A stretch of 64,000 bases of DNA from assembly GCA_026390595.1 (NCBI GenBank), contig JAPLFQ010000005.1:124001-188000 (forward strand). The letters are read 5' to 3'. This DNA is from Ignavibacteriales bacterium (lineage in GTDB: Bacteria > Bacteroidota > Ignavibacteria > UBA10030). How positions within the stretch are numbered: the stretch's first letter is position 1; each line of letters starts with the position of its first letter. The position numbers and the translations under genes were made by a program. This document shows positions 44,711 through 61,703 of this stretch, in pieces. The notes under the pieces are model-generated. The model worked only from the letters and a program-made list of their open reading frames with translations, made no database searches and was not told the DNA's origin.

Positions 44711-44894
44711 TCCGGCGTCCATGGGCCGGCTGATCCGCTCCAAATCTATGCGCAGAAATACCCGCCGGTCTGGCTTAGTCAAGACTTGGAACCGGATGAA
44801 CAGGCGTTTTGTTGATAGTACTCGAAACATATAACCAGATATCTCCGTATCTTTGTGGCACGATTTTTTGCTATTCCCTTACACTATTCAAGTC

Positions 44895-46088
44895 ATGGAA
44901 AATCGAAACGCTGATCTCTCTGGTTTACGCATTAATCGCACACAGGACGAGGAGCCGCAATCGCGCCGACGAGGCTCCGCTCTCAAGACTATTCTCTTTG
45001 CAGCCATCGCCATCGTGGTGGTCGTTCTTGGTTACATCCTCTTCTCCCGTATGTTTGAGTCTGCTCTCGAGGTCCAGCTCTCGACGGCTTCGTTTTCATC
45101 TCCATCCCAGGCAAACGCCGTGCTGACTGCGAGCGGTTATGTCGTCGCTCAACGTAAAGCTGCTGTCGCGTCCAAGGCAACGGGCCGGCTGATGTACCTC
45201 GGTGTTGTCGAGGGGGATCGCGCAAAAAAGGGCCAGGTGCTCGCCCGCATCGAGGATACCGATATTAAGGCTACCCTTGACCAGGCGCGGGCTAATCTAC
45301 AACTGTACGAGGCCGATCTGAAGGATGCGGCCCAATGGCTCGATCGTCAGAAGAAACTTCTGCAGAGCGGAGTCTCGACCCAGTCAGATTATGACGGAGC
45401 CGAAGCTCGCTACCGCCGGGTTCTTGCGTCCATCGACGTGGCAAAAGCTATGGTCGTCGGGGCGGAGGTTTCTCTCGAAAACACGCTCATCCGTGCCCCG
45501 TTCGACGGCACTGTTCTCACAAAAAATGCTGACGTCGGTGAAATGGTCGTCCCGATGGCGGCAAGCGCAAGTTCCAAGTCCGCCGTTGTGACGATTGCGG
45601 ATATGAGTTCACTGCAGGTTGAGACGGACGTCTCTGAATCCAATATTGAGCGCATCATTCCGGATCAGCCTTGCGAAATCACGCTGGATGCGTATCCCGC
45701 GATTCGTTACCGGGGATTTGTGGCAAAGGTCGTCCCCACAGCAGACCGCGCAAAAGCGACCGTCATGGTGAAGGTCGGCTTCAGGTCGTACGACAGCAAG
45801 GTGCTCCCCGAGATGAGCGCCAAGGTTCTTTTTCTTACAAAAGCTGCCGAGGCGGCCGCGTCAACAGCGAAACCGATGCTGACGATTCCGCTCTCCTCGG
45901 TCGCGACGCGGGGCGGCAAGAAGGTTGTGTTCACTGTTCGCGAGAACCAGGCCGTGGAGTCGTCTATCGTGGTAGGAAAAGAGTTCGGAGCGTTTGTGGA
46001 AGTGACGCAGGGCTTGTCTTCGGGCGACAAGGTTATTTCCAACGTGACGGAGCAAATCACCGCCGGGTCCCGGGTAAAAATTCGGTAG
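44895..46088 (+). CDS. Periplasmic adaptor (MacA/HlyD family) of ABC export system
   Basis: A 397-residue membrane-fusion protein. Residues 1-33 are cytoplasmic and polar, then a TM anchor (about 34-54). Lipoyl halves flank a coiled hairpin: ASGYVVAQRKAAVASKATGR, VVEGDRAKKGQVLARIEDTD, a helical region IKATLDQARANLQLYEADLK to EVSLENTLI, then IRAPFDGTVLTKNADVGEM. A beta-barrel and the C-terminal domain follow (SVATRGGKKVVFTV). First gene of a four-gene set with an ATPase and two permeases; together they form a MacAB-like or lipoprotein/antibiotic exporter. ATG 44895 is preferred over the GTG at 44853. Confidence 0.92.
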   Translation: MENRNADLSGLRINRTQDEEPQSRRRGSALKTILFAAIAIVVVVLGYILFSRMFESALEVQLSTASFSSPSQANAVLTASGYVVAQRKAAVASKATGRLMYLGVVEGDRAKKGQVLARIEDTDIKATLDQARANLQLYEADLKDAAQWLDRQKKLLQSGVSTQSDYDGAEARYRRVLASIDVAKAMVVGAEVSLENTLIRAPFDGTVLTKNADVGEMVVPMAASASSKSAVVTIADMSSLQVETDVSESNIERIIPDQPCEITLDAYPAIRYRGFVAKVVPTADRAKATVMVKVGFRSYDSKVLPEMSAKVLFLTKAAEAAASTAKPMLTIPLSSVATRGGKKVVFTVRENQAVESSIVVGKEFGAFVEVTQGLSSGDKVISNVTEQITAGSRVKIR

Positions 46089-46127
46089 TATCGCGTTCGA
46101 GAGAACCAGAGGAACAGGAAAGAGAAT

Positions 46128-46805
46128 ATGGATCCCATCATTCGGGTACACGATGTTTCAAAATCATATTGGCGGGACAGCTTTGAAGTCCCCGTTCTCA
46201 ATGGTATCTCTTTCGACGTACCCGAGGGCGAGTTCCTCGCGTTGATGGGCCCTTCCGGATCAGGAAAGACAACACTCCTGAATCTTATCGCCGGCATCGA
46301 TCGGCCGGACAAAGGAAGCATCAACGTCTCCGGGACAGACATTGCCTCGCTGAACGAATCGCGGCTCGCGAAGTGGCGCTCCGCGAACGTCGGTTTCATC
46401 TTCCAGTTTTACAACCTTATTCCCGTTCTTACCGCGTATGAAAACGTGGAGCTGCCCCTGCTGCTTACCTCGCTCTCAAAGCAGGAACGGCGCCAGCATG
46501 TGGAAACAGCCCTGACGGTTGTCGGTTTGCAGGACAGGATGCGCCACTACCCGAAACAGCTTTCGGGGGGCCAGGAACAGCGCGTCGCGATCGCCCGCGC
46601 TATTACCACCGATCCGACGCTCCTTGTTGCAGACGAGCCAACCGGCGATCTCGACAAACATTCAGCGGATGAGATTCTTACGTTGCTCGAACGGTTGAAC
46701 AAGGAGTTCAAGAAGACCATTGTGATGGTAACGCACGATCCACGGGCAGCAGAAAAGGCGCACATAGTCCGGCATCTTGACAAAGGGGAGCTCCGCCAAG
46801 ACTGA
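46128..46805 (+). CDS. ABC transporter ATP-binding protein (MacB/LolD type)
   Basis: A 225-residue nucleotide-binding subunit. Walker [10 protein letters not shown] (about 38-46), Q-loop [20 protein letters not shown], signature [15 protein letters not shown] (about 145-159), Walker [13 protein letters not shown] and H-loop MVTHDPRAA. The sequence is of the MacB/LolD/FtsE class that powers mechanotransmission exporters. It is 2 nt from the first permease gene. Confidence 0.95.
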
Positions 46806-46807
46806 CG

Positions 46808-47968
46808 ATGAAAGTTTTCAAGCTCATATTCAAAAACGCCCTCAGGCATAAGCTCCGAACAGCGCTTACAATCCTCGGTATCTCTATTGCCGTGATGGCG
46901 TTCGGGTTGCTCCGCACGGTTGTCACCGCGTGGTATGCCGGTGTCGAAGCTTCCGCGGCGAATCGCCTTATCTCACGCCAGGCCGTCTCATTCATTTTTC
47001 CCCTCCCCTACTCGTACAGGGATCAAATTGCGAAGATCCCCGGCGTCGAGCAGGTTACGTATCTAAACTGGTTTCAGGGTGTCTACATCGACAAGAACCA
47101 GTTCTTTGCCCGCCTGGCTGTTGACGCTGAGACGGTCTTTGATGTATATCCGGAATTTCTGCTCGATTCCGAGCAACTTCAGAATTTCAAACGCGAACGC
47201 AATTCGTGCGTCGTCGGCGCTGATCTTGCGAAACAGTATGGTTTCAAGCTCGGCGATATCGTTCAGATAGAAGGGGACATCTATCCCGGCACCTGGCAGT
47301 TTGTTGTGCGCGGCATCTACAAGCCGCGCGACAAGACCACCGATGCGACGCAGATGTTCTTCCACTGGCAGTATCTTGACGAGCGGATGAGAAAAGACTT
47401 TCCCGACCGCGCAGGACAGGTGGGATGGTATGTCGTCCGCATCGCCGATCCCGCACAATCGGGGACAATATCGAGCCAGATTGACGGGCTTTTCAATAAT
47501 TCGCGCGCAGAAACGAAGACTGAAACCGAACGTGCATTCCAACAGGGATTCATCGCGGCCGCGGGCGCAATCATCACGGCGATGAATTTCATGTCCTTCG
47601 TCATCATCGGTATTATCATGCTGGTGGTGGGTAACACGATGATTATGTCCGCCCGCGAGCGAACCCGTGAGTACGCCGTGTTCAAGACCCTTGGGTTCTC
47701 GGCCGGACATCTTGTCGGATTGATACTCGGAGAATCAATGCTCATCTCCGCTCTCGGTGGTGCGCTTGGTTTGTTTTTCACGTTCCCCTTTGTTGCCGCC
47801 TTCGCCGCAGCCGTACCAAAAGGATTTTTCCCAATCTTCAATGTCGAGCCGGTTACCGTGATTCTTGCGGTCTCTTCGGCACTCATTGTTGGTCTTGTCG
47901 CTTCGATTTTCCCGATCCAGCGGGCGTTGACAACGCGGATCGTTGATGGGCTGCGCCATGTCGGCTAA
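46808..47968 (+). CDS. ABC permease, MacB/FtsX family (first)
   Basis: A 386-residue FtsX-type permease: TM near 19-38 (LTILGISIAVMAFGLLRTVV), a large periplasmic MacB-PCD domain (about 60-250), then three C-terminal TM segments (AIITAMNFMSFVIIGIIMLV; GLILGESMLISALGGALGLF; VTVILAVSSALIVGLVASIF). The signature REYAVFKTLGFSAGHLVGLI sits between TM2 and TM3, and the C-terminus ends PIQRAL..RIVDGLRHVG. It is half of a heterodimeric pair with the next gene. Confidence 0.93.
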   Translation: MKVFKLIFKNALRHKLRTALTILGISIAVMAFGLLRTVVTAWYAGVEASAANRLISRQAVSFIFPLPYSYRDQIAKIPGVEQVTYLNWFQGVYIDKNQFFARLAVDAETVFDVYPEFLLDSEQLQNFKRERNSCVVGADLAKQYGFKLGDIVQIEGDIYPGTWQFVVRGIYKPRDKTTDATQMFFHWQYLDERMRKDFPDRAGQVGWYVVRIADPAQSGTISSQIDGLFNNSRAETKTETERAFQQGFIAAAGAIITAMNFMSFVIIGIIMLVVGNTMIMSARERTREYAVFKTLGFSAGHLVGLILGESMLISALGGALGLFFTFPFVAAFAAAVPKGFFPIFNVEPVTVILAVSSALIVGLVASIFPIQRALTTRIVDGLRHVG

Positions 47969-47999
47969 GCTGGTTTCTCAATTGATGGCAAAAGAATAA

Positions 48000-49166
48000 G
48001 TGAAGATCCCTCTTAAATATACTCTCCGCAACCTGGGCACACGTCGATTGACGACGGGCATCACCGTCCTCGGCATCGCGCTTGTCGTCTTTGTGTTTTC
48101 GGCTGTGTTGATGATGGCGTATGGCGTTCAGAAAACTCTTATCGCCACCGGTTCGGATGAGAACGTTCTGGTCGCGCGCAAGGCGGCGAACGGGGAGATC
48201 TCCAGCATCATCGACAGGGAAACTGCGAACGTTATCCTTACTCTCCCTCACATTGCGAAGACCTCCGAGGGAAAACCCATCGCCTCAGGTGAACCGGTCG
48301 TCGTCATCAATCTGAACAAGGTGGACGGTGGTCTCAGCAACGTCACGGTGCGCGGCGTATCACCACAGGTGTTCACCCTCAGACCCCAGGTGAAATTGAA
48401 AGAGGGTCGAATGTTTACGTGGGGGGCTCGCGAGCTTGTTACCGGAGTGTCGATCGCGAAGCACTTCGCGGGATCGAAGATCGGTGACATTGTGCGCTTC
48501 GCCGGAGACAACTGGACCGTCGTGGGTCTCTTCGATTCTGACGGCAGCGGATTTGACTCCGAAATGTGGGGCGACACGGAGCAATTGCTCGACGCGTTTA
48601 CTCGCAGCGCGTACTCGACCATGACGTTCCGGCTTGACCAGCCGAACGCCTTCAATGATTTTGTTGCCGCGTTCAACAAAGAACCGCGGTTGCAGCAATT
48701 CGAGCCGAAAATTGAGAAACGGTTCTTCGAGGAACAGTCCGAATTGATGGCGGGATTCATCCGGATCCTCGGAATTTTTATCACGGTGATCTTCAGTGCC
48801 GGGGCGACCATTGGTGCGATGATCACGATGTACGCCGCGGTCGCAAACCGGACCGTTGAGGTGGGGACCCTTCGTGCGCTCGGATTCCCCCGGCGCAGTG
48901 TGCTCGCCGCTTTTCTGACAGAATCGCTCTTGCTGTCTCTCATTGGCGGCGCCATTGGTCTCGCTTTCGCTTCAACGCTTCAGTTTGTGACTATCTCAAC
49001 GCTTAATTTTGGCTCTTTTTCCGAGCTTGCCTTCTCCTTCGCTCTTTCCCCCTCCATTATTGTATCCTCGCTCCTTTTTTCTTTGATGATGGGTCTCCTT
49101 GGGGGGTTCTTGCCCTCGGTCCGTGCAGCGCGCCTCAATATCGTCAACGCCCTTCGTTCGTCCTGA
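48000..49166 (+). CDS. ABC permease, MacB/FtsX family (second)
   Basis: A 388-residue partner permease with the same plan: TM near 17-39 (GITVLGIALVVFVFSAVLMM), a periplasmic domain, then TM segments (FIRILGIFITVIFSAGATIG; LLLSLIGGAIGLAFASTLQF; SIIVSSLLFSLMMGLLGGFL). RTVEVGTLRALGFPRRSVL is the FtsX signature, and the end is PSVRAARLNIVNALRSS. Start GTG 48000, 31 nt after the first permease. The two are diverged, so they probably form a heterodimer. Confidence 0.92.
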   Translation: MKIPLKYTLRNLGTRRLTTGITVLGIALVVFVFSAVLMMAYGVQKTLIATGSDENVLVARKAANGEISSIIDRETANVILTLPHIAKTSEGKPIASGEPVVVINLNKVDGGLSNVTVRGVSPQVFTLRPQVKLKEGRMFTWGARELVTGVSIAKHFAGSKIGDIVRFAGDNWTVVGLFDSDGSGFDSEMWGDTEQLLDAFTRSAYSTMTFRLDQPNAFNDFVAAFNKEPRLQQFEPKIEKRFFEEQSELMAGFIRILGIFITVIFSAGATIGAMITMYAAVANRTVEVGTLRALGFPRRSVLAAFLTESLLLSLIGGAIGLAFASTLQFVTISTLNFGSFSELAFSFALSPSIIVSSLLFSLMMGLLGGFLPSVRAARLNIVNALRSS

Positions 49167-49265
49167 TTTCCGGCTTTGATTGCTTTTGCCGGAGTTCCCT
49201 CGGCCTTTCGTCTTGATAGAAAGAGAGATGCTCTCTATATTCTATTGAAGGGCTGCGAAGCCCCA

Positions 49266-49931
49266 ATGACCTGCGGGTTTTCCGAAGCATATTCAATGAT
49301 GCCCGACGGGCCTGCCGGGGAACTTCTAGCCTCCTGGGGTCTTGTGAAGCACATCAGCGAACACAGCATCGAATTGTATGTTCTCAAGCCAACAATTTTC
49401 GATGCCGCGACGCGCGCGTTCATGGAAGAGCACTTGCGGTCGTGCGCAGTCTGTGCGGAGGTGGAACGCGAACTCCGGGTGTATCATGCCGAGCTTAACA
49501 GCAATCCGCGCACCGCTTCCGACCGCGTCCGGGTGATTATCGAAAGACCCTCTGAGCTTTCGAGCGTTATCCGGCTCTATCCGTACAAGCATCTTCCCGG
49601 ATCGGGGTTCATCGACAATCGCGGTATAACGGTGCTGGCCGCTCAGTCGCCGGGATCGTTTCCGCACCGCTTCAAACCGGTTGCGGTGTATTCTTCCGTC
49701 GATCAGCAAATCGTCGTACGCATCGTGCAGGACACAGAGGAAGATCTTTACAAGCTCTATGTCCTGGGGGCACAACAGGAGAACTGCCGCTTTGCCGTCG
49801 TTTCCTTTCCAGAGCTCGAGATGGATCTCGGCACAGACGAATCGGGCAAGAAGGATTTCTCGCTCCCAGCCGATAAGCGTCCGTCAGATTGGTATATGCT
49901 GAATGCCTTCGTCCGGCTCCGCGGGCAATAA
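49266..49931 (+). CDS. Unknown protein with HxxxCxxC zinc motif
   Basis: A 221-residue soluble protein. H56-x3-C60-x2-C63 (HLRSCAVC), preceded by TRAFMEEHL, matches the zinc ribbon/helix of anti-sigma HC2 domains. No TM segment follows and the rest (PSELSSVIRLYPYKHLPGSG; FKPVAVYSSVDQQIVVRIVQ) is beta-rich and of no family I know. Start uncertain: ATG 49266 is used, with ATG 49296 as alternative. It lies 131 nt before the Lon-like fusion on the same strand, so the two may act together. Confidence 0.65.
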   Translation: MTCGFSEAYSMMPDGPAGELLASWGLVKHISEHSIELYVLKPTIFDAATRAFMEEHLRSCAVCAEVERELRVYHAELNSNPRTASDRVRVIIERPSELSSVIRLYPYKHLPGSGFIDNRGITVLAAQSPGSFPHRFKPVAVYSSVDQQIVVRIVQDTEEDLYKLYVLGAQQENCRFAVVSFPELEMDLGTDESGKKDFSLPADKRPSDWYMLNAFVRLRGQ

Positions 49932-50062: not shown

Positions 50063-52375
50063 GTGAAGCCAACTCCTTTTGAAACAGAGAGTCGCTTTCA
50101 AGATCTCCTCCTTACTCTCACCTTTCTTTCTTCACCCCGTCAACGGCTTCGAGAAATCCGGGGATTTCTTGAGAGCCTTCGGGGGCAGATTCAGGTTTCC
50201 GAGCCCTATATCCTCGATATTGTGCAGCGTCTTCCTCACTTGCTCCGACAACTTCAACCGGAAGGCATCGAACCCGAAGAATTGCGAACCGCTCTTTGTT
50301 CCCTTCAAGAACTTGGCATAACCTTGCCGATTCTCCGTTCTGTGAAAGAATTCGACAGGTCGCTTGAACTTCTGAAGCGTTTTCTCGCCCGTCAGCTCGT
50401 GTATGCGGGGGAAGTTGAGCAGGCTGCTTTCCTGTTCAGTGATGATCCGCTTCTGCTGACGATCCCCGCTGAAACCGTTCTGACTCCTTTTGAACTCCTC
50501 GAACTCGGCTTGCACGCTGCAAGAGAGCTGAAACATCCGGCGCTTGGTCCTTTTACGGAGTTTCTCCGCGCATGGAAAGAGCGAACCCGCTCGGCTCCAA
50601 GTCGCACCATTTTCCCGGCTGTGGAGAAACCCCTTGTGGCAGCAGGTCAGCAATCTACCGGACGCTTGCGCGGCGTATCAGTTGAACTCTTCGGCGAAAC
50701 AAAAAATGGCAGTGATGATCTTCGGGCCGATGTCGCGATGCTCCCTGAGGGAGAACAGGACTTTGTCCTTCCTGCTTTTGCTGCGGTTCGAACCTTGATA
50801 GCGGACATGCACCCCAATCTTGTTGATCACTTCTACTCTGGGCGCATTCGTTTTGACGATCTGACAGCGCTGCATGAAGGGAGTTCTGCAAATCTTGCGA
50901 TCGCAGCGATCACGTACTGTGAAATCCTCCGTTATTCGAATCAACGCACGGTTTTTCAACTCTCTTCTCGGGCGGCATTCACCGGCGGAATCAACGAAAG
51001 CGGTGAGGTTCTTCCGGTTGAACCTGCGACGCTCGTGGAGAAGATCAAAGCTGCGGTTTTTTCGCCTGTGGATTTCCTCGTTATTCCGCGCCAGCAGCTG
51101 GCAGAGGCTCAACGCCTTACACGTGATTTGGAAAAATCCTATCCGCGAAGAAATCTTGTGCTTGTCGTTTTAGGAAACCTCAGGGATGTGTTTGTTGACA
51201 GGCGGTTGAGCGCCCTTCTTGTTGTCGGGCCCGTCCGTCACCTGGGAAAGATGGTCTGGAGAAGAAAACCCTTCGTTCTGGCTCTGGGGGTTGTGGCTGT
51301 TTTGCTGCTCGTTATTGCCAGGCTTTGGTTTGGTCCGGTCGACAGGAGGCCCTCGTACACAGAAACTGTTGGTGAAGAACTCCTGGTCAAGAACGCGTTC
51401 GGCGCCGTGCTCGACGCCGTCCACATCAACCGGGCTACCGCCGACGCGGCGGCACAACACCAGACATATTTGAGCTTGAGCGCGCTTGTTGACGTAAACG
51501 GTGACGGGAAACCCGAATTGATTTGGGCCGAAGCCAATGCAGAAAGATCTGCGGAAACCTCCTTTGTTGCATGCAAGATTGTCGGAACGGATACAATCCT
51601 TTGGCGACATGAGGTAAGGAACCGATTTTCGTTTCCAAAGAATAGAGACGCCGAAGCGGGTGGATATGGAATCACCGATCTGGTTGTCGATGATGTCGAT
51701 GGCGATCGTCAACCCGATGTCTTCTTCGCCGCACAAAACCCCATGTTTTGCTCCATCGTTGTCAGGCTTGATGCCAGAACCGGAAAGGAAATCGACTGCT
51801 ACCTCAATATTGGTCATATCATCGATTTGCTACTGATGGACCTGAAGAATACTGGAAAGCCGATGCTGATCGGCTGCGGGGTCAATAATGCTTTCGGGCG
51901 GGGATGCATGGTTGTTCTCGATCCATCCAGAATGAGCGGACATTCTCCGTTACAGGGAGACTATGTGGTCGACGGTCTTCCTCTTGGAAGAGAGGTTTAT
52001 TACTTGCTGGCACCCAGGTCATCCCTCGCTGAAATCTACAGTGAAACTGTTCACAACAACGCACAGAGCATAGAGAAGATACGTGGGGGTGGGATCTTGT
52101 GGACGGTGAGGGATTTTTTTGTACACAAGAACCGGGTTGAGGGCTTTGTGAGGTTTCACCTGGACACAACCATGCATTTTCGGCAAGCGGGTTCGAATAA
52201 TGAGTGGGGTGTTTTCAGACGAAAGGCTCTCTCCGAAAACTTACTTCCTGTGGTGGCTGAAGACGAATACCTCCGGCAGCTCGGCAACAATATTCTCTAT
52301 TGGGATGGAGGGGGCTGGCAGAAGACTGCGGTCATGAATCGACGCTACAGCGAGGTTGTCGGCAACAAAGAGTGA
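50063..52375 (+). CDS. Lon-protease-like domain, TM segment and VCBS/FG-GAP-like domain fusion
   Basis: A 770-residue protein starting at GTG 50063 (GGGGA 5 nt upstream). Residues 1-190 are mainly helical (leucine-rich, no family recognised). Residues 205-375 resemble the Lon proteolytic domain: HEGSSANLAIAAITYCEIL with S275 in the position of the Lon catalytic serine, FTGGINESGEVLPV, and TLVEKIKAAVFSPVDFLVIP with K327 in the position of the catalytic lysine. A TM segment follows (about 411-432). The extracytoplasmic remainder has VCBS/FG-GAP-like metal loops (VDVNGDGKPEL; VDDVDGDRQPDVFFA). There is no AAA ATPase domain. A serine-lysine protease with a cytoplasmic catalytic domain and outside beta-propeller is proposed; activity is unproven. 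Confidence 0.75.
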   Translation: MKPTPFETESRFQDLLLTLTFLSSPRQRLREIRGFLESLRGQIQVSEPYILDIVQRLPHLLRQLQPEGIEPEELRTALCSLQELGITLPILRSVKEFDRSLELLKRFLARQLVYAGEVEQAAFLFSDDPLLLTIPAETVLTPFELLELGLHAARELKHPALGPFTEFLRAWKERTRSAPSRTIFPAVEKPLVAAGQQSTGRLRGVSVELFGETKNGSDDLRADVAMLPEGEQDFVLPAFAAVRTLIADMHPNLVDHFYSGRIRFDDLTALHEGSSANLAIAAITYCEILRYSNQRTVFQLSSRAAFTGGINESGEVLPVEPATLVEKIKAAVFSPVDFLVIPRQQLAEAQRLTRDLEKSYPRRNLVLVVLGNLRDVFVDRRLSALLVVGPVRHLGKMVWRRKPFVLALGVVAVLLLVIARLWFGPVDRRPSYTETVGEELLVKNAFGAVLDAVHINRATADAAAQHQTYLSLSALVDVNGDGKPELIWAEANAERSAETSFVACKIVGTDTILWRHEVRNRFSFPKNRDAEAGGYGITDLVVDDVDGDRQPDVFFAAQNPMFCSIVVRLDARTGKEIDCYLNIGHIIDLLLMDLKNTGKPMLIGCGVNNAFGRGCMVVLDPSRMSGHSPLQGDYVVDGLPLGREVYYLLAPRSSLAEIYSETVHNNAQSIEKIRGGGILWTVRDFFVHKNRVEGFVRFHLDTTMHFRQAGSNNEWGVFRRKALSENLLPVVAEDEYLRQLGNNILYWDGGGWQKTAVMNRRYSEVVGNKE

Positions 52376-55643: not shown

Positions 55644-58600
55644 CTACTTCAAGAGCGGTTCTCCGCGTTTGATGAACTGAATCGGCAAGCCCCATGGATC
55701 GCGCAGAACAAGAACCTGATCCCCCGCGTTTGTTTCACGGATTTCGTCCGCCAACGTCGCTCCCGCCTCAATCAAACCCGTCCGCAGGGACCGAACATCG
55801 TCTACGACAAACGCGACATGTATTGACACAGTATTAAGTTTTATCAGATCCAGCATTGGCGCGGATGTACTCGTTGAAAACTCGAGCATCATGTTTTTTC
55901 CGTCATCGGCAACGAACTGCGTGAATGAAGGCGCACCCCCCTGCCGGACTACGCGCATGCCAAGGTTTTCCACATACCAGTTCGCTGCCGACCACGGGTC
56001 CGCAAGGTTGAGCGCCAGGTGCTCAAAGCGAAGGCCCCCGGGCTTCAGCATTGGAGAAACCCTCACTGTGAACTGAATCGGAAGCCCCCAGGGGTCTCGC
56101 AGCATGAGGATCCGGTCACCGGAGGGTGTCGTCACGAGGTCCTCGGCAATCGCCGCACGCGCGGCGAGCAGCCGGCTTCTTATTTCGTCGACATCGTCGA
56201 CTGCAAATGCGAGATGCAGGGACACATGGCTGATTGTTGCGTAATCCGGAATTGGCGCCTTCTCGTTTCTATAGAGCTCAAGCGTCATGGTTCCAGCGGA
56301 ATCAGCAATGAAGTGCGTTGTGGCAGGGGGCGGACTCCTGCGCACAATCTTCATCCCCAGATTATCACAGTACCACTTCGCCACTGCAACCGGGTCTGAG
56401 ACGTTGAAGGCTATGTGCTCGGGACGCGGCTTTTTGGCCAACGCGAAAACCTCGTCATTGACAGGGGCTGTTTTCGGCACCGCACCGTTACTCTCCAGCT
56501 CAACGCTATTGTTGATTACGGTGATTTCGTTCAGGCTGTTCTCTGGATCGATCTGCACGCTGCATCCGTTCGGAACGCCTCCTGTTGGCACCGGAATGAT
56601 TACTTCAGCGAACCTTGGCTCAAGATCAACCGGGGCCTGGATGGCTGGCACGTCGACCGAGGCGATTATCTTCTTCTCTTTCATGATCACCGCTGTCGTC
56701 CGCGGGCTGGCAACCGAACCAAGACTGTGAACCTTCACATGCACGGTCTTCCCTTCAAGCCAAACATCTTCCTTGCTGATCCCGAGATCCGGCCGTTGAG
56801 AATATGGGGTTGATCGGGATTGCAGACGAAGAGTCAGAATTGTTGCCTTGCGCGGTTCAAACTTCAGCGGGATTGTTAACGTCCGTTCAAGGTACATCGT
56901 CTGTTTCGAGATGGTTGTGTCAGCGACGTCGTCGTTGTTCATATCAAGCCCCTGCAGCACCTCCCATGTTCCGGGCTCGATGTTCCAAAGCGTCATGGAC
57001 GCTTCAACCGGTTTCTGATCGAGCGTGTATGCGATGGCCTTGATTGCCGATGGGATTGCTTCTGGGACGAGGATGGCTACGCTCTGATCGGTCGCCGGCG
57101 CCCTGAATTTCCAGCTTACCGCGTGTCCAGAGTGGATGGCCCCCCGCACGAGCGCGACACCTCCAAGCCTTGAGCGCTGCAACTCGCGGTTGGCTGCAAA
57201 CACACGATCGCTCCAGAGTGATCCTTCGGTGTTGATATACTCCCTCAGCGCCGAGGCCTCGGCCTGGTCGGCATAATAATGCTCCAGAAATGCTTTGTTT
57301 CCCGTGGTCTGCCAGGCAAGATGCCGAAACAGGTCGGTTCCCTTCTCCGGGGTAGTCTTGTCTGCGATTTGATGTCCCCACGTTTGTTTGAGGTTGAGTA
57401 TGTTGAGTGCGTCGTTGCTTATCAATCCGAGAACACTCTCGCCGAGATCCAGAAGGGGCTGTAGATATTTCACTTCTCCGGTCGTCCGATAGACCCACCA
57501 GAGCAGTTGGAGTGCTGCCGACGATGTGCTTATCGTCGCTCCGTCTCCCGTGCCTGCTGAAAGTATTGCCTTTGTTCCCAGAGGAGACGGCCTCGTCGAA
57601 TCGCTTGTGAAGTTGATTTCTGAATCCAGAACAATCTTGCCTTTGTTGTCCTTCCTTGCGTGCGCTAACAATCCATCTGCGACATCGATCGCCAGCTGGC
57701 GGGCGCGGGGATTGCCGTTGAAGTCGGCAAGAGTCAGAACGGGTTGAAGCAGCAGGAACTCCTGCGGTTGGAGCGACCACTCCCAGACGCTTTCGTCCGC
57801 CATCCTGGTTCCACTGAAATAGCTCGAACGAAAATGCCGGTGTCCCGCCTTATTCTTGAGAATCACCTTTTCGTCAAGAGCACGGACGGTTTCCATGATT
57901 CGTTCCACCTGCTTCGGGCTTCCGTAATCCACAAGCATCGCCTGGGTCTGCGCCTCGATTCCCTCTTCGTGTGCATGCAGACCATCGGTTTGAATTGTTG
58001 AGAGACCATGTGTTAACATTCCGTTCTCGTAGATCGCATCCAACAACCGAAGCACCGCACCGCTGATTTTTCCCGGCTCGCAGCCCATGAGGGCGGCGCC
58101 TGGCCAGCAGTTGGTGAGATCGTCATCATCGGAAAGTCCGCCGCCAAGCTCTCCGTTTCCAATCTGGCGGTTGTCGATCCACCACAATACAAAGCGTTTG
58201 AAATACCGAAGATCCTCTATCTGCCGAAAAGCCCAGGCGGGAATTCCCTCTGGCACTGCGGGCTGGACGTAGAGCGGCTTGCCGTGAGCGTGGTCAAGAT
58301 CGTACCAATAATTTTGTCCGGGGTAGTGCTTTGAATCCACCCTCAGGAGGTCGTTGACATCACCTTCAAACCGGTTATAAATATTCAACCGCGGATCATC
58401 CGGCCTTTCTTCGACGAGAAACGCATAATTATCCCGCACCTGCGTGAACCGGTCTTGAACGTGCTCCCGGTACGCATCCTTCCAGTCTTTGAACACCACT
58501 CGGATTTGAGCTCCTTCGAGTGCGCCCTGCGCAAAATCCGGCGCATCGGATGCGATGACGAGATAGAGGCTTTTCGTTTTCGGAAGAATCCGATCCCGCG

Positions 58601-60377
58601 TATCAAGCCACAGCGTGCGCGCCTCGCCCGGTTTCACAGAGAACGAGAAATCGAGCATGCTGCGGTTCGGCCAGAGCGGGTCTCTGACTTGTATGTTCAT
58701 CGGGATGAATGTTCCCTGTGTCGGTTGTAGACTCAACGGCGGCAAATCGATCGCAACGCCGTCGAGACCACCGCTGATTGTCGCCCAATCATACGACGAA
58801 TCGGATTCGGCGCCTGCAGCACTTCCGGCACGAGCATCGTATGGAATGATGATGTGAATAAGCGGAAGGCGCTGTTGATTTTTCAGCGGCGGTTTTTGCA
58901 TGCCCGGCTTCACCGGCAAGGCGATCATTGTTGACCGCTCATCCGCCGCGAATCGCCCGTTGATATAGCCCAAAACTGACGCCACCTGGTTGACCGCGTT
59001 TTCTGATCCGCCGTGAAGAAAATAGCGCAGTGACCGCTCCCCTCGCGGCTCATTTCCCGGTTCAACGTGATAGACAGACAATTCTCCGATCGGTGTTTCC
59101 TGTTCGCCGTTTTTGAAGTGCAGTTCTCCTCCGGTCACCGTATTCTGCAGTCTATGAACGGTCTTTTCCTGTCCCCGGGGTCTTGTGAAAACACTCTCGC
59201 TGTTTCCTTGTTGGTTGCCGCCGGTGAGCGTCATGGTTCCCCACGCTCCGCCCGAGATTTCCACATGATTCCATGTTTCGTCCGGCAGCGAAAAAGTGAT
59301 AGCGTTGCCCGACTGCGAATAGCAATCCCAATCCGGCAACTGGAAGTAATCGTTGCGGCCCGGCAGGCGAGAGCGGTTATAGACTCCCGGCCACGACGTT
59401 TCACGGATCCCGTCTGTTCCTTTCCACCACCAGCGTTTGAGATCGTAGGCGTTCTGAATTTCTATTTTTCGCACGTGTGTGGAGCGTTCATCGAGATATG
59501 GCGGGATGTCTCCCGCTCGGTTCCAACCGTACCGCAATCGCCATTCTGATTGCCAGCGGGCGCCTTTGAGGTTTCGTTTCAGGTCGGGGATGTTTCCCGC
59601 CGAAGCATGTTTGGCAAGCTGTGTAATATTCGCATCGGAAAGCATGCGATCATAAATACGTACCTCATCGATGTCTCCCCCGCGCTGAAAATTGTATGCG
59701 CTTTGAACCTGGTACGGGCTGATGATGCGGGAGTGCGGTCCAAATTGATCAAGTCCGGCATACAGAACGGTGGTGCTGTCCTTCTGCGCAACAAGTTTTC
59801 CATCAGCATAGAATCGAATCCCGGCGGTCTCATCCCAGGTGAGGGCAAGGTGTATCCACTGTTTGGGTTGTGGAAACGGCTGAATGGCGTGCGATATTCT
59901 TATGCGTGCGAGGTTGACATCGGTAACGAACGCGTCAAAACCATGGCCGTTGTAATCGATGCGGAGCCATACCATGTCCCAGCTTGAGTGGTCGGCATAG
60001 GCAACCCGAAAGATCGGGAATTCGGTTTCACCGACCGGCTCGCGTGATCTCCAGAAAAAGCTCAACGTACCTCGTTCCGCGTAGATGTTACCTGGCGCCC
60101 GGTAAGTCATGAGCTGCTTGTGTCCGCACTCGAAACCTGCGCCTTTGGCACCGTCGGGGATGATTTTTACATTCTCAAGGAAGTTTGGCGTGGCTGTCCC
60201 GGCTGCTGAATAGTCGGCGTTGAAGCCGTGATCACCTGAGAGATAAAAAAGAAGGCCAGGCTCGGGGGCGTTCGGAGGCTTCTTATCCTGAGAATACAGC
60301 CGGGGCTGTGGAAACAGCAGGCCGAGGATCAGCAGAGAATACAACACGCGAGACGGTGACACACGGTGCTTGGACAC
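55644..60377 (-). CDS. Giant secreted LamG-(toroid)-CARDB-VOC-VOC protein
   Basis: A 1577-residue exported protein. GTG 60377 is chosen: AAGGAGAT lies 5-6 nt before it and it opens a signal peptide (SKHRVSPSRVLYSLLILGLL, ends LYSQ), while longer frames overlap the preceding gene. N-terminal LamG domain (about 40-260: RGTLSFFWRSREPVGETEFP, WIHLALTWDETAGIRFYADG). A middle region of about 900 residues contains WFYDLDHAHG-like, FKRFVLWWIDNRQI and STSSAALQLLWWVYRTTGEV, helical-toroid in style. A CARDB-like domain (about 1230-1310: VHVKVHSLGSVASPRTTAVI, DPENSLNEITVINN) follows. The last 265 residues are two VOC domains (PEHIAFNVSDPVAVAKWY..., FEHLALNLADPWSAANWY...). Probably carbohydrate-active or carbohydrate-binding; no family assigned. 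Confidence 0.75.
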   Translation of the reverse strand: MSKHRVSPSRVLYSLLILGLLFPQPRLYSQDKKPPNAPEPGLLFYLSGDHGFNADYSAAGTATPNFLENVKIIPDGAKGAGFECGHKQLMTYRAPGNIYAERGTLSFFWRSREPVGETEFPIFRVAYADHSSWDMVWLRIDYNGHGFDAFVTDVNLARIRISHAIQPFPQPKQWIHLALTWDETAGIRFYADGKLVAQKDSTTVLYAGLDQFGPHSRIISPYQVQSAYNFQRGGDIDEVRIYDRMLSDANITQLAKHASAGNIPDLKRNLKGARWQSEWRLRYGWNRAGDIPPYLDERSTHVRKIEIQNAYDLKRWWWKGTDGIRETSWPGVYNRSRLPGRNDYFQLPDWDCYSQSGNAITFSLPDETWNHVEISGGAWGTMTLTGGNQQGNSESVFTRPRGQEKTVHRLQNTVTGGELHFKNGEQETPIGELSVYHVEPGNEPRGERSLRYFLHGGSENAVNQVASVLGYINGRFAADERSTMIALPVKPGMQKPPLKNQQRLPLIHIIIPYDARAGSAAGAESDSSYDWATISGGLDGVAIDLPPLSLQPTQGTFIPMNIQVRDPLWPNRSMLDFSFSVKPGEARTLWLDTRDRILPKTKSLYLVIASDAPDFAQGALEGAQIRVVFKDWKDAYREHVQDRFTQVRDNYAFLVEERPDDPRLNIYNRFEGDVNDLLRVDSKHYPGQNYWYDLDHAHGKPLYVQPAVPEGIPAWAFRQIEDLRYFKRFVLWWIDNRQIGNGELGGGLSDDDDLTNCWPGAALMGCEPGKISGAVLRLLDAIYENGMLTHGLSTIQTDGLHAHEEGIEAQTQAMLVDYGSPKQVERIMETVRALDEKVILKNKAGHRHFRSSYFSGTRMADESVWEWSLQPQEFLLLQPVLTLADFNGNPRARQLAIDVADGLLAHARKDNKGKIVLDSEINFTSDSTRPSPLGTKAILSAGTGDGATISTSSAALQLLWWVYRTTGEVKYLQPLLDLGESVLGLISNDALNILNLKQTWGHQIADKTTPEKGTDLFRHLAWQTTGNKAFLEHYYADQAEASALREYINTEGSLWSDRVFAANRELQRSRLGGVALVRGAIHSGHAVSWKFRAPATDQSVAILVPEAIPSAIKAIAYTLDQKPVEASMTLWNIEPGTWEVLQGLDMNNDDVADTTISKQTMYLERTLTIPLKFEPRKATILTLRLQSRSTPYSQRPDLGISKEDVWLEGKTVHVKVHSLGSVASPRTTAVIMKEKKIIASVDVPAIQAPVDLEPRFAEVIIPVPTGGVPNGCSVQIDPENSLNEITVINNSVELESNGAVPKTAPVNDEVFALAKKPRPEHIAFNVSDPVAVAKWYCDNLGMKIVRRSPPPATTHFIADSAGTMTLELYRNEKAPIPDYATISHVSLHLAFAVDDVDEIRSRLLAARAAIAEDLVTTPSGDRILMLRDPWGLPIQFTVRVSPMLKPGGLRFEHLALNLADPWSAANWYVENLGMRVVRQGGAPSFTQFVADDGKNMMLEFSTSTSAPMLDLIKLNTVSIHVAFVVDDVRSLRTGLIEAGATLADEIRETNAGDQVLVLRDPWGLPIQFIKRGEPLLK

Positions 60378-60417
60378 AAACAATCTCCTTGCCCGGCGGT
60401 TCTGTGCGGGCGCATGT

Positions 60418-60966
60418 TCATCGGTATGTCTTATCATCAATACGACTGAGGTCAATGCCGTCCTTAAAGACTCCAAGGGTCACAATCGCGAACGTGAACA
60501 CTGTCGTTCCGGGTTCGAGGTGACCGCCGAAAGCATTTTCCGCGTTGGTCAAAGTCATGTGTGCATGAATACGACCATCGATGATGTAACCGTTCATGCT
60601 CACAAGGTCGGCCGGGGCGGAGGGGTTCTTGACGAGAAGGTTCTTTGACGGAAACGTCCGGTTGCTCACCATGTGAAAGTGGTATCCCGTGAGTGAGCCG
60701 GCGCCGGAAATAACAACGGCATTTCTGATTTTCTGTTCTTTGACCATCTTTTCCATGCCCGCCAGCAAGTCTGTCTGATATTTGAACCGAAGCACGACAA
60801 TGCGCTCGAACTGGCCGTTGAGCGCGTAGACGTCCGGGATGGAGTCGTTGTTGGCCTTCTTGTCCTCTGATGGCGTGGTGGCTTTCGTGACCTCGGTACG
60901 GGTCTCTTGCGCAACCAGCGACCCCGTCATCACCAGGGCGGTCAACGCATATAGGAGTGCTCGCAT
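60418..60966 (-). CDS. Exported PPC/DUF296 domain protein
   Basis: A 182-residue protein. ATG 60966 (GGGAG 8 nt upstream) starts a signal peptide (MRALLYALTALVMTGSLVAQ). The mature part is a PPC/DUF296 domain: YALNGQFERIVVLRFKYQTD, AVVISGAGSLTGYHFHMVS, SMNGYIIDGRIHAHMTLTNA and AFGGHLEPGTTVFTFAIVTL. The domain is best known from AT-hook DNA-binding proteins and from bacterial trimeric metal-binding proteins, usually cytoplasmic. An exported copy is unusual. It is 32 nt after the LamG gene and 40 nt before the giant gene, in one operon. Confidence 0.85.
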   Translation of the reverse strand: MRALLYALTALVMTGSLVAQETRTEVTKATTPSEDKKANNDSIPDVYALNGQFERIVVLRFKYQTDLLAGMEKMVKEQKIRNAVVISGAGSLTGYHFHMVSNRTFPSKNLLVKNPSAPADLVSMNGYIIDGRIHAHMTLTNAENAFGGHLEPGTTVFTFAIVTLGVFKDGIDLSRIDDKTYR

Positions 60967-60998: not shown

Positions 60999-61703
60999 CT
61001 ACCGTTTCATGAATTCCGTCGGCACAAGACATTTCGGCGTAATCCGAATATTGTAGATGCTCCCTTTGAACCATGACACTTTGTTCATGCGGACCCCGAT
61101 CGAAGCACCGCCCTTCTTGAAGGGGGAGAAGGCAACCACGCCGTTCAGCTCATGCTCACCGTTCACGTAGGTATCCATCGTCCCGCCATCGACAACCAGG
61201 GCGACATGATACCACCTCCCCGCCTGATGAAGTTTTTCCTTGTCTACCAACGCCCGGGAAGAATCCCCTGATTTGATAAAGGCATCAAGATACCATCGAT
61301 CATCGTCCGTCACGCGGGTTTCGAGGAGCAGCCTGTCGCCGTTGGCTTCCCCCATATGGAGAAACCTCTGTTCGTGCGGCGCCCTGGGGTCTGGTTGGAA
61401 CAAAACTTCTATCGTGAATTGTGTCAACCTCTCAAGTGGGTTTGCGTTCAGCAGTATTCCGTCCTTTGTACCGTCAAAGCACAGCGCCTTTCCATACGGG
61501 CAGCCGACGATGTGCGGCGCCCCCTCTTTTGTGACGTCTTTCGTTTCTGAGCTGTAAAGCTCTGCGAGTCTCCAGTCGACCACATGCTGTTGTTCTGCCA
61601 CGACCGTGTCCTTTCGCAATGGGCCTGTTTGCGCAGAGAAGAGCGGCTCCCCGCACAATAGTAATACTGTTATGATTATTCCCAGCGCCGTAATCGTCTT
61701 CAT
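60999..61703 (-). CDS. Secreted LamG/concanavalin-like protein
   Basis: A 234-residue exported protein with a signal peptide (1-24). One laminin-G-like jelly-roll: DGTKDGILLNANPLERLTQF, TIEVLFQPDPRAPHEQRFLH, GRWYHVALVVDGGTMDTYVN, VAFSPFKKGGASIGVRMNKV, SWFKGSIYNIRITPKCL. The C-terminus ends soon after, so it is a stand-alone binding module. LamG domains of this sort bind sugars or proteins. Operonic with the M28 peptidase (21 nt) and the DUF296 gene. Confidence 0.85.
   Translation of the reverse strand: MKTITALGIIITVLLLCGEPLFSAQTGPLRKDTVVAEQQHVVDWRLAELYSSETKDVTKEGAPHIVGCPYGKALCFDGTKDGILLNANPLERLTQFTIEVLFQPDPRAPHEQRFLHMGEANGDRLLLETRVTDDDRWYLDAFIKSGDSSRALVDKEKLHQAGRWYHVALVVDGGTMDTYVNGEHELNGVVAFSPFKKGGASIGVRMNKVSWFKGSIYNIRITPKCLVPTEFMKR

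Follow-up and report, generated by a model that had tools for sequence, protein, structure and literature searches.

Lon-fold membrane proteins with exchangeable ectodomains and their conserved gene partners in Ignavibacteria: a candidate route of transmembrane signalling

In the CalpL–CalpT–CalpS system, activated Lon cuts the anti-sigma factor CalpT and frees the sigma factor CalpS, according to an excerpt of the report on that system (PMC12751052). Excerpts of two further papers describe LonC (MtaLonC, TTC1975), whose Lon protease domain is not accompanied by a working AAA module (PMC3391209), and PDZ-Lon of B. subtilis (NP_389388.1), an AAA-less Lon in which a PDZ domain lies N-terminal to the Lon domain (PMC2605481). 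The 2008 table of S16 architectures contains no Lon–TM–FG-GAP combination in its excerpted form (PMC2605481). Our search of the open-licence PubMed Central literature found no description of a Lon–TM–FG-GAP protein or of the G1–ZF–Lon gene trio presented below.

ECF sigma factors form pairs with membrane anti-sigma factors, and the factor is released by regulated intramembrane proteolysis. In the characterised systems known to us, a signal that crosses the bacterial inner membrane by proteolysis depends on several separate proteases, which act in a chain on a membrane anti-sigma factor. A receptor with its own inner protease domain would signal in one step, and it would show Lon, outside CRISPR, as a signal enzyme instead of a quality-control machine. 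Here, we analyse a candidate for such a receptor, encoded in a 64,000-nucleotide stretch of an Ignavibacteriales contig (JAPLFQ010000005.1, positions 124,001 to 188,000; hereafter the window), together with its relatives in the class and phylum.

Domain order, Lon fold and topology of the window protein

The 770-residue product of the window gene (Table 1) consists of an N-terminal helical region, a Lon-fold domain, one membrane helix and an FG-GAP region, in that order, and its start site matches the position of homologue starts. The FG-GAP region passes the Pfam cut-offs for both FG-GAP (PF01839, 29.6 vs. 22.1 bits) and FG-GAP_3 (PF13517, 29.4 vs. 26.9 bits). No AAA family was found among the Pfam matches of the protein at E<=10, and it is therefore not a LonA or LonB ATP-dependent protease.

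Table 1. Features of the window locus; positions are those of the window.
Feature	Coordinates	Strand	Basis or remark
Soluble zinc-motif partner ZF, 195 aa	49344..49931	+	GTG start inferred from alignment to relatives
H-x3-C-x2-C motif (HLRSCAVC) of window ZF	49431..49454	+	Invariant alignment columns
Gene for predicted membrane Lon-like receptor protein	50063..52375	+	770 aa, GTG start at 50063
N-terminal helical region, residues 1-180	50063..50602	+	Model; PLxxEQxFQ start conserved
Lon protease fold, residues 181-385	50603..51217	+	Family profile, Foldseek, VIA-align
Codon for catalytic-position Ser275	50885..50887	+	53/53 + 9/9 homologues
Codon for catalytic-position Lys327	51041..51043	+	53/53 + 9/9 homologues
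Transmembrane helix, residues 404-422	51272..51328	+	N-side inside by charge bias
Extracytoplasmic FG-GAP/VCBS-like region, residues about 430-765	51350..52357	+	Pfam, homologue alignment, model

Recognition of the Lon domain needed the family, because the single sequence gave FG-GAP only in Pfam and, against PDB sequences, a best E of 0.6 (LonB protease domain of A. fulgidus). The whole window protein alone has no Lon_C match in Pfam at E<=10, a Lon_C search of its own genome returned three loci, none of which is the window gene, and genome contigs yielded no relative when searched with the single sequence of the window Lon region. Matches to the window protein occur in 32 of 61 genomes (its own and 60 relatives), many of them through the C-terminal part alone. 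The Lon match reaches significance only with a family profile. Nine of ten family members match Lon_C at E<=10 (best 1.4e-7). The profile built from 10 Lon regions hits the LonB protease domain of A. fulgidus with an E of 1.4e-9, other Lon structures ranking below; CalpL is also among the matches of this profile (E 0.14).

Structure prediction points the same way. For the window protein, an AlphaFold model built on a 5-sequence alignment (mean pLDDT 66.5, with low confidence at residues 128-187) has LonA as its top Foldseek match (E 2.0e-8), and residues 181-385 align to the Lon fold by VIA-align with Z 19.7 and an rmsd of 2.4 Å over 175 residues. An earlier examination of the DNA letters without database searches (the sequence-only reading) had proposed this fold, with S275 and K327 as its catalytic dyad, and both proposals agree with the present data. 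The putative dyad is placed by alignment: the LonB motifs G-D-S and Q-K-I-E align under S275 (within G-S-S275-A-N-L) and K327 (within LVEKIKAA) in the 10-region profile, and both residues are invariant in the alignment of the ten Lon regions. They are kept in 53/53 aligned homologues (52 fetched proteins plus that of the window, after four loci repeating others had been dropped), with a spacing of 52 residues in every case, and in 9/9 additional Lon proteins from stretches outside the class. Identity between most pairs of Lon regions is 22-47%, and the dyad is nonetheless kept. The position of T307 holds Thr in 51/53 rows and Ser in 2/53. A further serine, S334 (codon 51062-51064), lies seven residues past the lysine at the catalytic position and is invariant (53/53).

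The window protein has a single hydrophobic segment (residues 404-422), and a hydrophobic helix follows the Lon domain in 53/53 rows. Lys and Arg together average 4.85 on the N-side of this helix vs. 1.42 on its C-side, and the Lon side has the higher number in 52 of the 53 proteins, the two sides being equal in the remaining one. By the positive-inside rule, the positively charged flank of a membrane helix faces the cytoplasm, and this bias therefore argues for a cytoplasmic Lon domain and an FG-GAP region beyond the membrane. The other features that the sequence-only reading had ascribed to the protein, namely the absence of an AAA module and one TM segment leading into an outside VCBS-like domain, are also supported. 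A simple hydropathy scan gave another weak hydrophobic segment in 13/53 proteins, in most cases within the Lon domain or N-terminal to it. We read the window protein as a putative single-pass receptor protease, with proteolysis as its predicted activity.

The ectodomain is exchangeable, being FG-GAP in most of the family and LamG (lectin-like) in two Lon proteins, each about 1020 aa long and adjoining G1. A different arrangement was seen in L018 (436-3024, minus strand), where one 863-aa ORF carries two consecutive FG-GAP regions, both resembling the C-terminal part of the window protein.

The gene trio, its sister operons and their surroundings

The new element described here is a conserved gene trio composed of G1 (about 340 aa, soluble), ZF or a degenerate ZF (soluble), and then the Lon–TM–sensor gene. 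In relatives with the full protein, the order G1, ZF (about 280 aa) and Lon–TM–FG-GAP was confirmed by profiles. Forty further stretches were fetched from the class searches, representing most, not all, of the Lon-bearing matches, and L136 was taken for its G1 match. G1 is present on the stretch for 38 of the 52 fetched Lon genes, always on the same strand and in 32 cases within 1.2 kb. ZF accompanies 25 of the 52, lying within 200 bp in 24 of those, and a degenerate ZF is on the stretch in 16. The association with the zinc-motif gene just upstream, which the sequence-only reading had put forward for a neighbourhood search, is thereby supported. At least one partner (G1, ZF or degenerate ZF) was found for 43/52 Lon genes; the other nine had none on the fetched stretch, and five of these are situated some 220 bases or less from a stretch end.

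Profile searches detected G1 in 139 of the 391 genomes of the class searched (A2 profile) and in 38 of the 296 genomes of the phylum searched (A6 profile), 14 of the latter outside the class. Twelve stretches from 10 of these 14 genomes, chosen only by their G1 match, formed a reverse linkage set, in which Lon–TM–FG-GAP adjoins G1 in 7/12 stretches, ZF is present in 8/12, and neither occurs in 4/12. Since seven of the twelve G1-chosen stretches carry Lon–TM–FG-GAP, the Lon–G1 linkage is not an artefact of choosing loci by Lon. The recurrence of the trio in many related genomes suggests an undescribed route from an outside signal to gene control.

Some loci hold several copies of one gene. Three tandem Lon–TM–FG-GAP genes stand behind one ZF and one G1 in L168 (3-6688, minus strand), and four Lon–TM–FG-GAP genes lie within 14 kb in L116. 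Two G1-like genes are found in L173 (9200-11865, minus strand), from a genome with three such matches; this stretch has neither Lon nor ZF, and short genes (about 117-124 aa) are repeated near the G1-like ones.

The ORF of the window ZF opens at 49176; the sequence-only reading had its gene start at 49266, and the alignment-based proposal is that of Table 1. The product, which that reading had called a zinc-motif protein, has an H-x3-C-x2-C motif. The protein scores below the Pfam cut-off for zf-HC2 (14.9 vs. 22.2 bits), as do all 15 ZF, ZF-like or ZF-fusion proteins scanned, the best relative reaching 17.1 bits. By pattern, H-x3-C-x2-C occurs in 17 of 25 ZF proteins, plus the one in L098, in which a Cys in the gap is excluded by the pattern. 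Many ZF-type partners are without zinc ligands. A family of 13 genes encoding proteins of about 175 aa is, as judged from its profile alignment to ZF (hhalign, 96.8%, E 2.5e-10), a degenerate and homologous form of ZF. A TM segment is absent from ZF (25/25) and from degenerate ZF (13/13), and present in all four ZF–FG-GAP fusions scanned.

Such fusions characterise a set of sister operons, in which ZF is joined directly to TM–FG-GAP and adjoins G1. The window's own genome has three G1 genes, each beside a ZF–TM–FG-GAP fusion (L044, L178 and L179). One ectodomain family is used in two ways: it holds ZF directly, or it carries Lon while ZF is free. Neither G1 nor these sister operons figured in the sequence-only reading.

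Other neighbours of these systems deserve mention. Genes for HlyD, an ABC ATPase and two MacB/FtsX permeases lie directly upstream of the window ZF on the same strand (44853-49166, plus strand) and make up a transporter operon of the HlyD-MacB type; in L037 and L172, MacB/FtsX permease genes likewise immediately precede G1. LamG (Laminin_G_3) domains are encoded in the window at 59625-60068 and 61014-61475 (minus strand), one of them in a 1610-aa ORF (55644-60476). Sixteen of the 17 LamG matches of the window's genome fall on contigs C3, C2 and C5, which hold three of its four G1 or Lon systems, and with coordinates read by eye a LamG match lies within 10 kb of three of the four. The same reading by eye placed a LamG match within 10 kb of the system in five of 14 other trio genomes (G041, G211, G164, G098 and G038); in G164 it is the sole one in the genome at E<=1e-6. 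LamG genes are possible candidate targets of the systems.

Nature of G1 and the proposed mechanism

G1 is without a family name in the libraries searched, and neither these nor a PDB sequence profile gave anything credible; in particular, no sigma family matched in Pfam or NCBIfam. Its AlphaFold model (five sequences, mean pLDDT 79.2) has no match to PDB chains by Foldseek at E<=0.001. By VIA-align, residues 1-120 align to the part of sigma32 that we take to be sigma regions 1.2-2 (Z 7.5, 2.9 Å, 92 residues) and also to sigmaS and sigmaA, and residues 16-120 align to ECF sigmaH. Across several sigma factors Z is 5.4-7.5 over 76-93 residues, which according to the tool is the chance range for helical models. 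Fifteen of the 50 matches listed are sigma factors as judged by their titles (those titled RPSD and RPSB being presumably sigma D and sigma B of B. subtilis), and six of these align compactly to residues 1-120 or 16-120. The strongest match among those listed is lambda Q (residues 242-341, Z 8.4), also a middling value. Profile alignment was tried as well: hhalign of G1 against sigma factors of its own genome gave values near zero at first; once 39 G1 sequences were used, its best local alignment was to sigma region 2. This support was rejected, as the value of 22.0 obtained against 21 own-genome sigma proteins beats 200/200 column shuffles but is exceeded by the reversed profile (26.2).

A sigma-like fold of G1 is thus suggestive in the model, and taken together with the gene order and the ZF partner it makes the sigma reading a little better than even. 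More broadly, G1 is probably a transcription factor. The strongest competing view, to which we assign a chance a little short of even, is that G1 is some other helical effector or adaptor, and that the trio controls something besides transcription. The empty family searches, the reversed-profile control and the first place of lambda Q among the listed matches would all suit this view, but it leaves aside the share of sigma factors in that list and the compact placement of six of them at the N-terminus of G1. Should G1 indeed be a transcription factor, these environmental bacteria would have an entire layer of regulation that is unannotated.

The mechanism that we propose, and hold to be evenly balanced between right and wrong, is that an external signal activates the inner Lon domain, which would cleave ZF and so free G1, the probable transcription factor. 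The ectodomain would bind something outside, and the arrangement of the inner Lon domains would change. The rearranged domains would then cut soluble ZF, the putative normal holder of G1. Once free, G1 would act at the level of transcription; it might be a very divergent sigma-like factor, or else some other factor that binds RNA polymerase or DNA. Within this receptor–ZF–G1 model, the Lon domain would be proteolytically active inside the cell, as its conserved dyad suggests. In the sister operons, the ectodomain-fused ZF might be held directly, and a protease would not be needed. The broader proposition, that there is a phylum-wide class of one-piece transmembrane receptor proteases, in which interchangeable FG-GAP propeller or LamG lectin sensors drive an AAA-less Lon to cleave a soluble holder, so releasing members of a hitherto unrecognised, highly divergent sigma-like family (G1), is a tentative one that we would sooner expect to fail than to hold.

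It is also conceivable, and in our opinion unlikely, that the Lon domain is active and that ZF–G1 is its regulator and not its substrate. The pair would then bind the inner domain and switch the protease, or feed it, with other cytoplasmic targets being cut. Conserved linkage gives no direction to the relationship, ZF–TM–FG-GAP operons pair with G1 and have no protease, and the window has retained ZF and Lon in the absence of G1. However, the sister fusions put ZF between a membrane sensor and G1, which fits a holding role, and CalpL provides a known Lon that cuts a holder (excerpt of PMC12751052).

The window locus itself has ZF and Lon with no G1 beside them, and no G1 match was found on its contig at E<=10. 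The wiring of the window copy may differ from that of its relatives; under the proposed cleavage mechanism, its target could be a different one, or the product of a G1 gene at another locus. That it is instead a relic of a trio that has lost G1 seems rather improbable to us. Its ZF is short (195 aa vs. about 270-290 aa in most trio relatives), as a relic might have, but the ZF in L037 is also short (217 aa) and has G1 present, and the window copy is intact in its dyad, TM helix and ectodomain. Least credible of all is a Lon domain acting as a non-proteolytic scaffold that relays a shape change to ZF–G1, like the Lon-fold parts of RadA and ComM, since even though these two are among the structural matches of the window Lon region (VIA-align, Z 16.6-16.7) and sister operons do without any protease domain, a Ser and a Lys kept in all 53 and all nine proteins, at fixed spacing in the 53, would be hard to explain without catalysis.

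Comparison with known systems

The window protein is not a LonC as that group is described, because its Lon domain is internal and followed by the 404-422 helix and the ectodomain, whereas LonC, in the excerpted description, lacks a transmembrane region and has its protease domain at the C-terminus (PMC3391209). PDZ-Lon resembles it in being an AAA-less Lon fused to a different domain; as far as the excerpt goes, PDZ-Lon differs in having no FG-GAP or LamG ectodomain, and in orientation (PMC2605481).

The proposed system is also similar to ECF sigma/anti-sigma pairs, in that an outside signal would release a soluble factor from the product of an adjacent gene that holds it, and the ZF–TM–FG-GAP fusions resemble membrane anti-sigma factors. 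It differs from them in that the window protease appears to be the receptor itself, acting from inside, and in that G1 is without a sigma family match.

CalpL is a soluble protein. It senses cA4 inside the cell through SAVED (type III CRISPR), whereas the window protein has a TM helix and a predicted outside sensor, and no SAVED family was found in it with Pfam or PADLOC. A link to defence was not indicated by PADLOC, which matched none of the five proteins tested. G1 and ZF, having no family match above cut-off, set the two systems further apart, and the window system is not a member of the CalpL family. Nevertheless, the CalpL–CalpT–CalpS system, as excerpted, shares with the window system an AAA-less Lon-like domain, a fused sensor and two linked partner genes (PMC12751052). 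It is the nearest analogue that we can point to, and it would serve as the precedent for the proposed cleavage of a holder by Lon.
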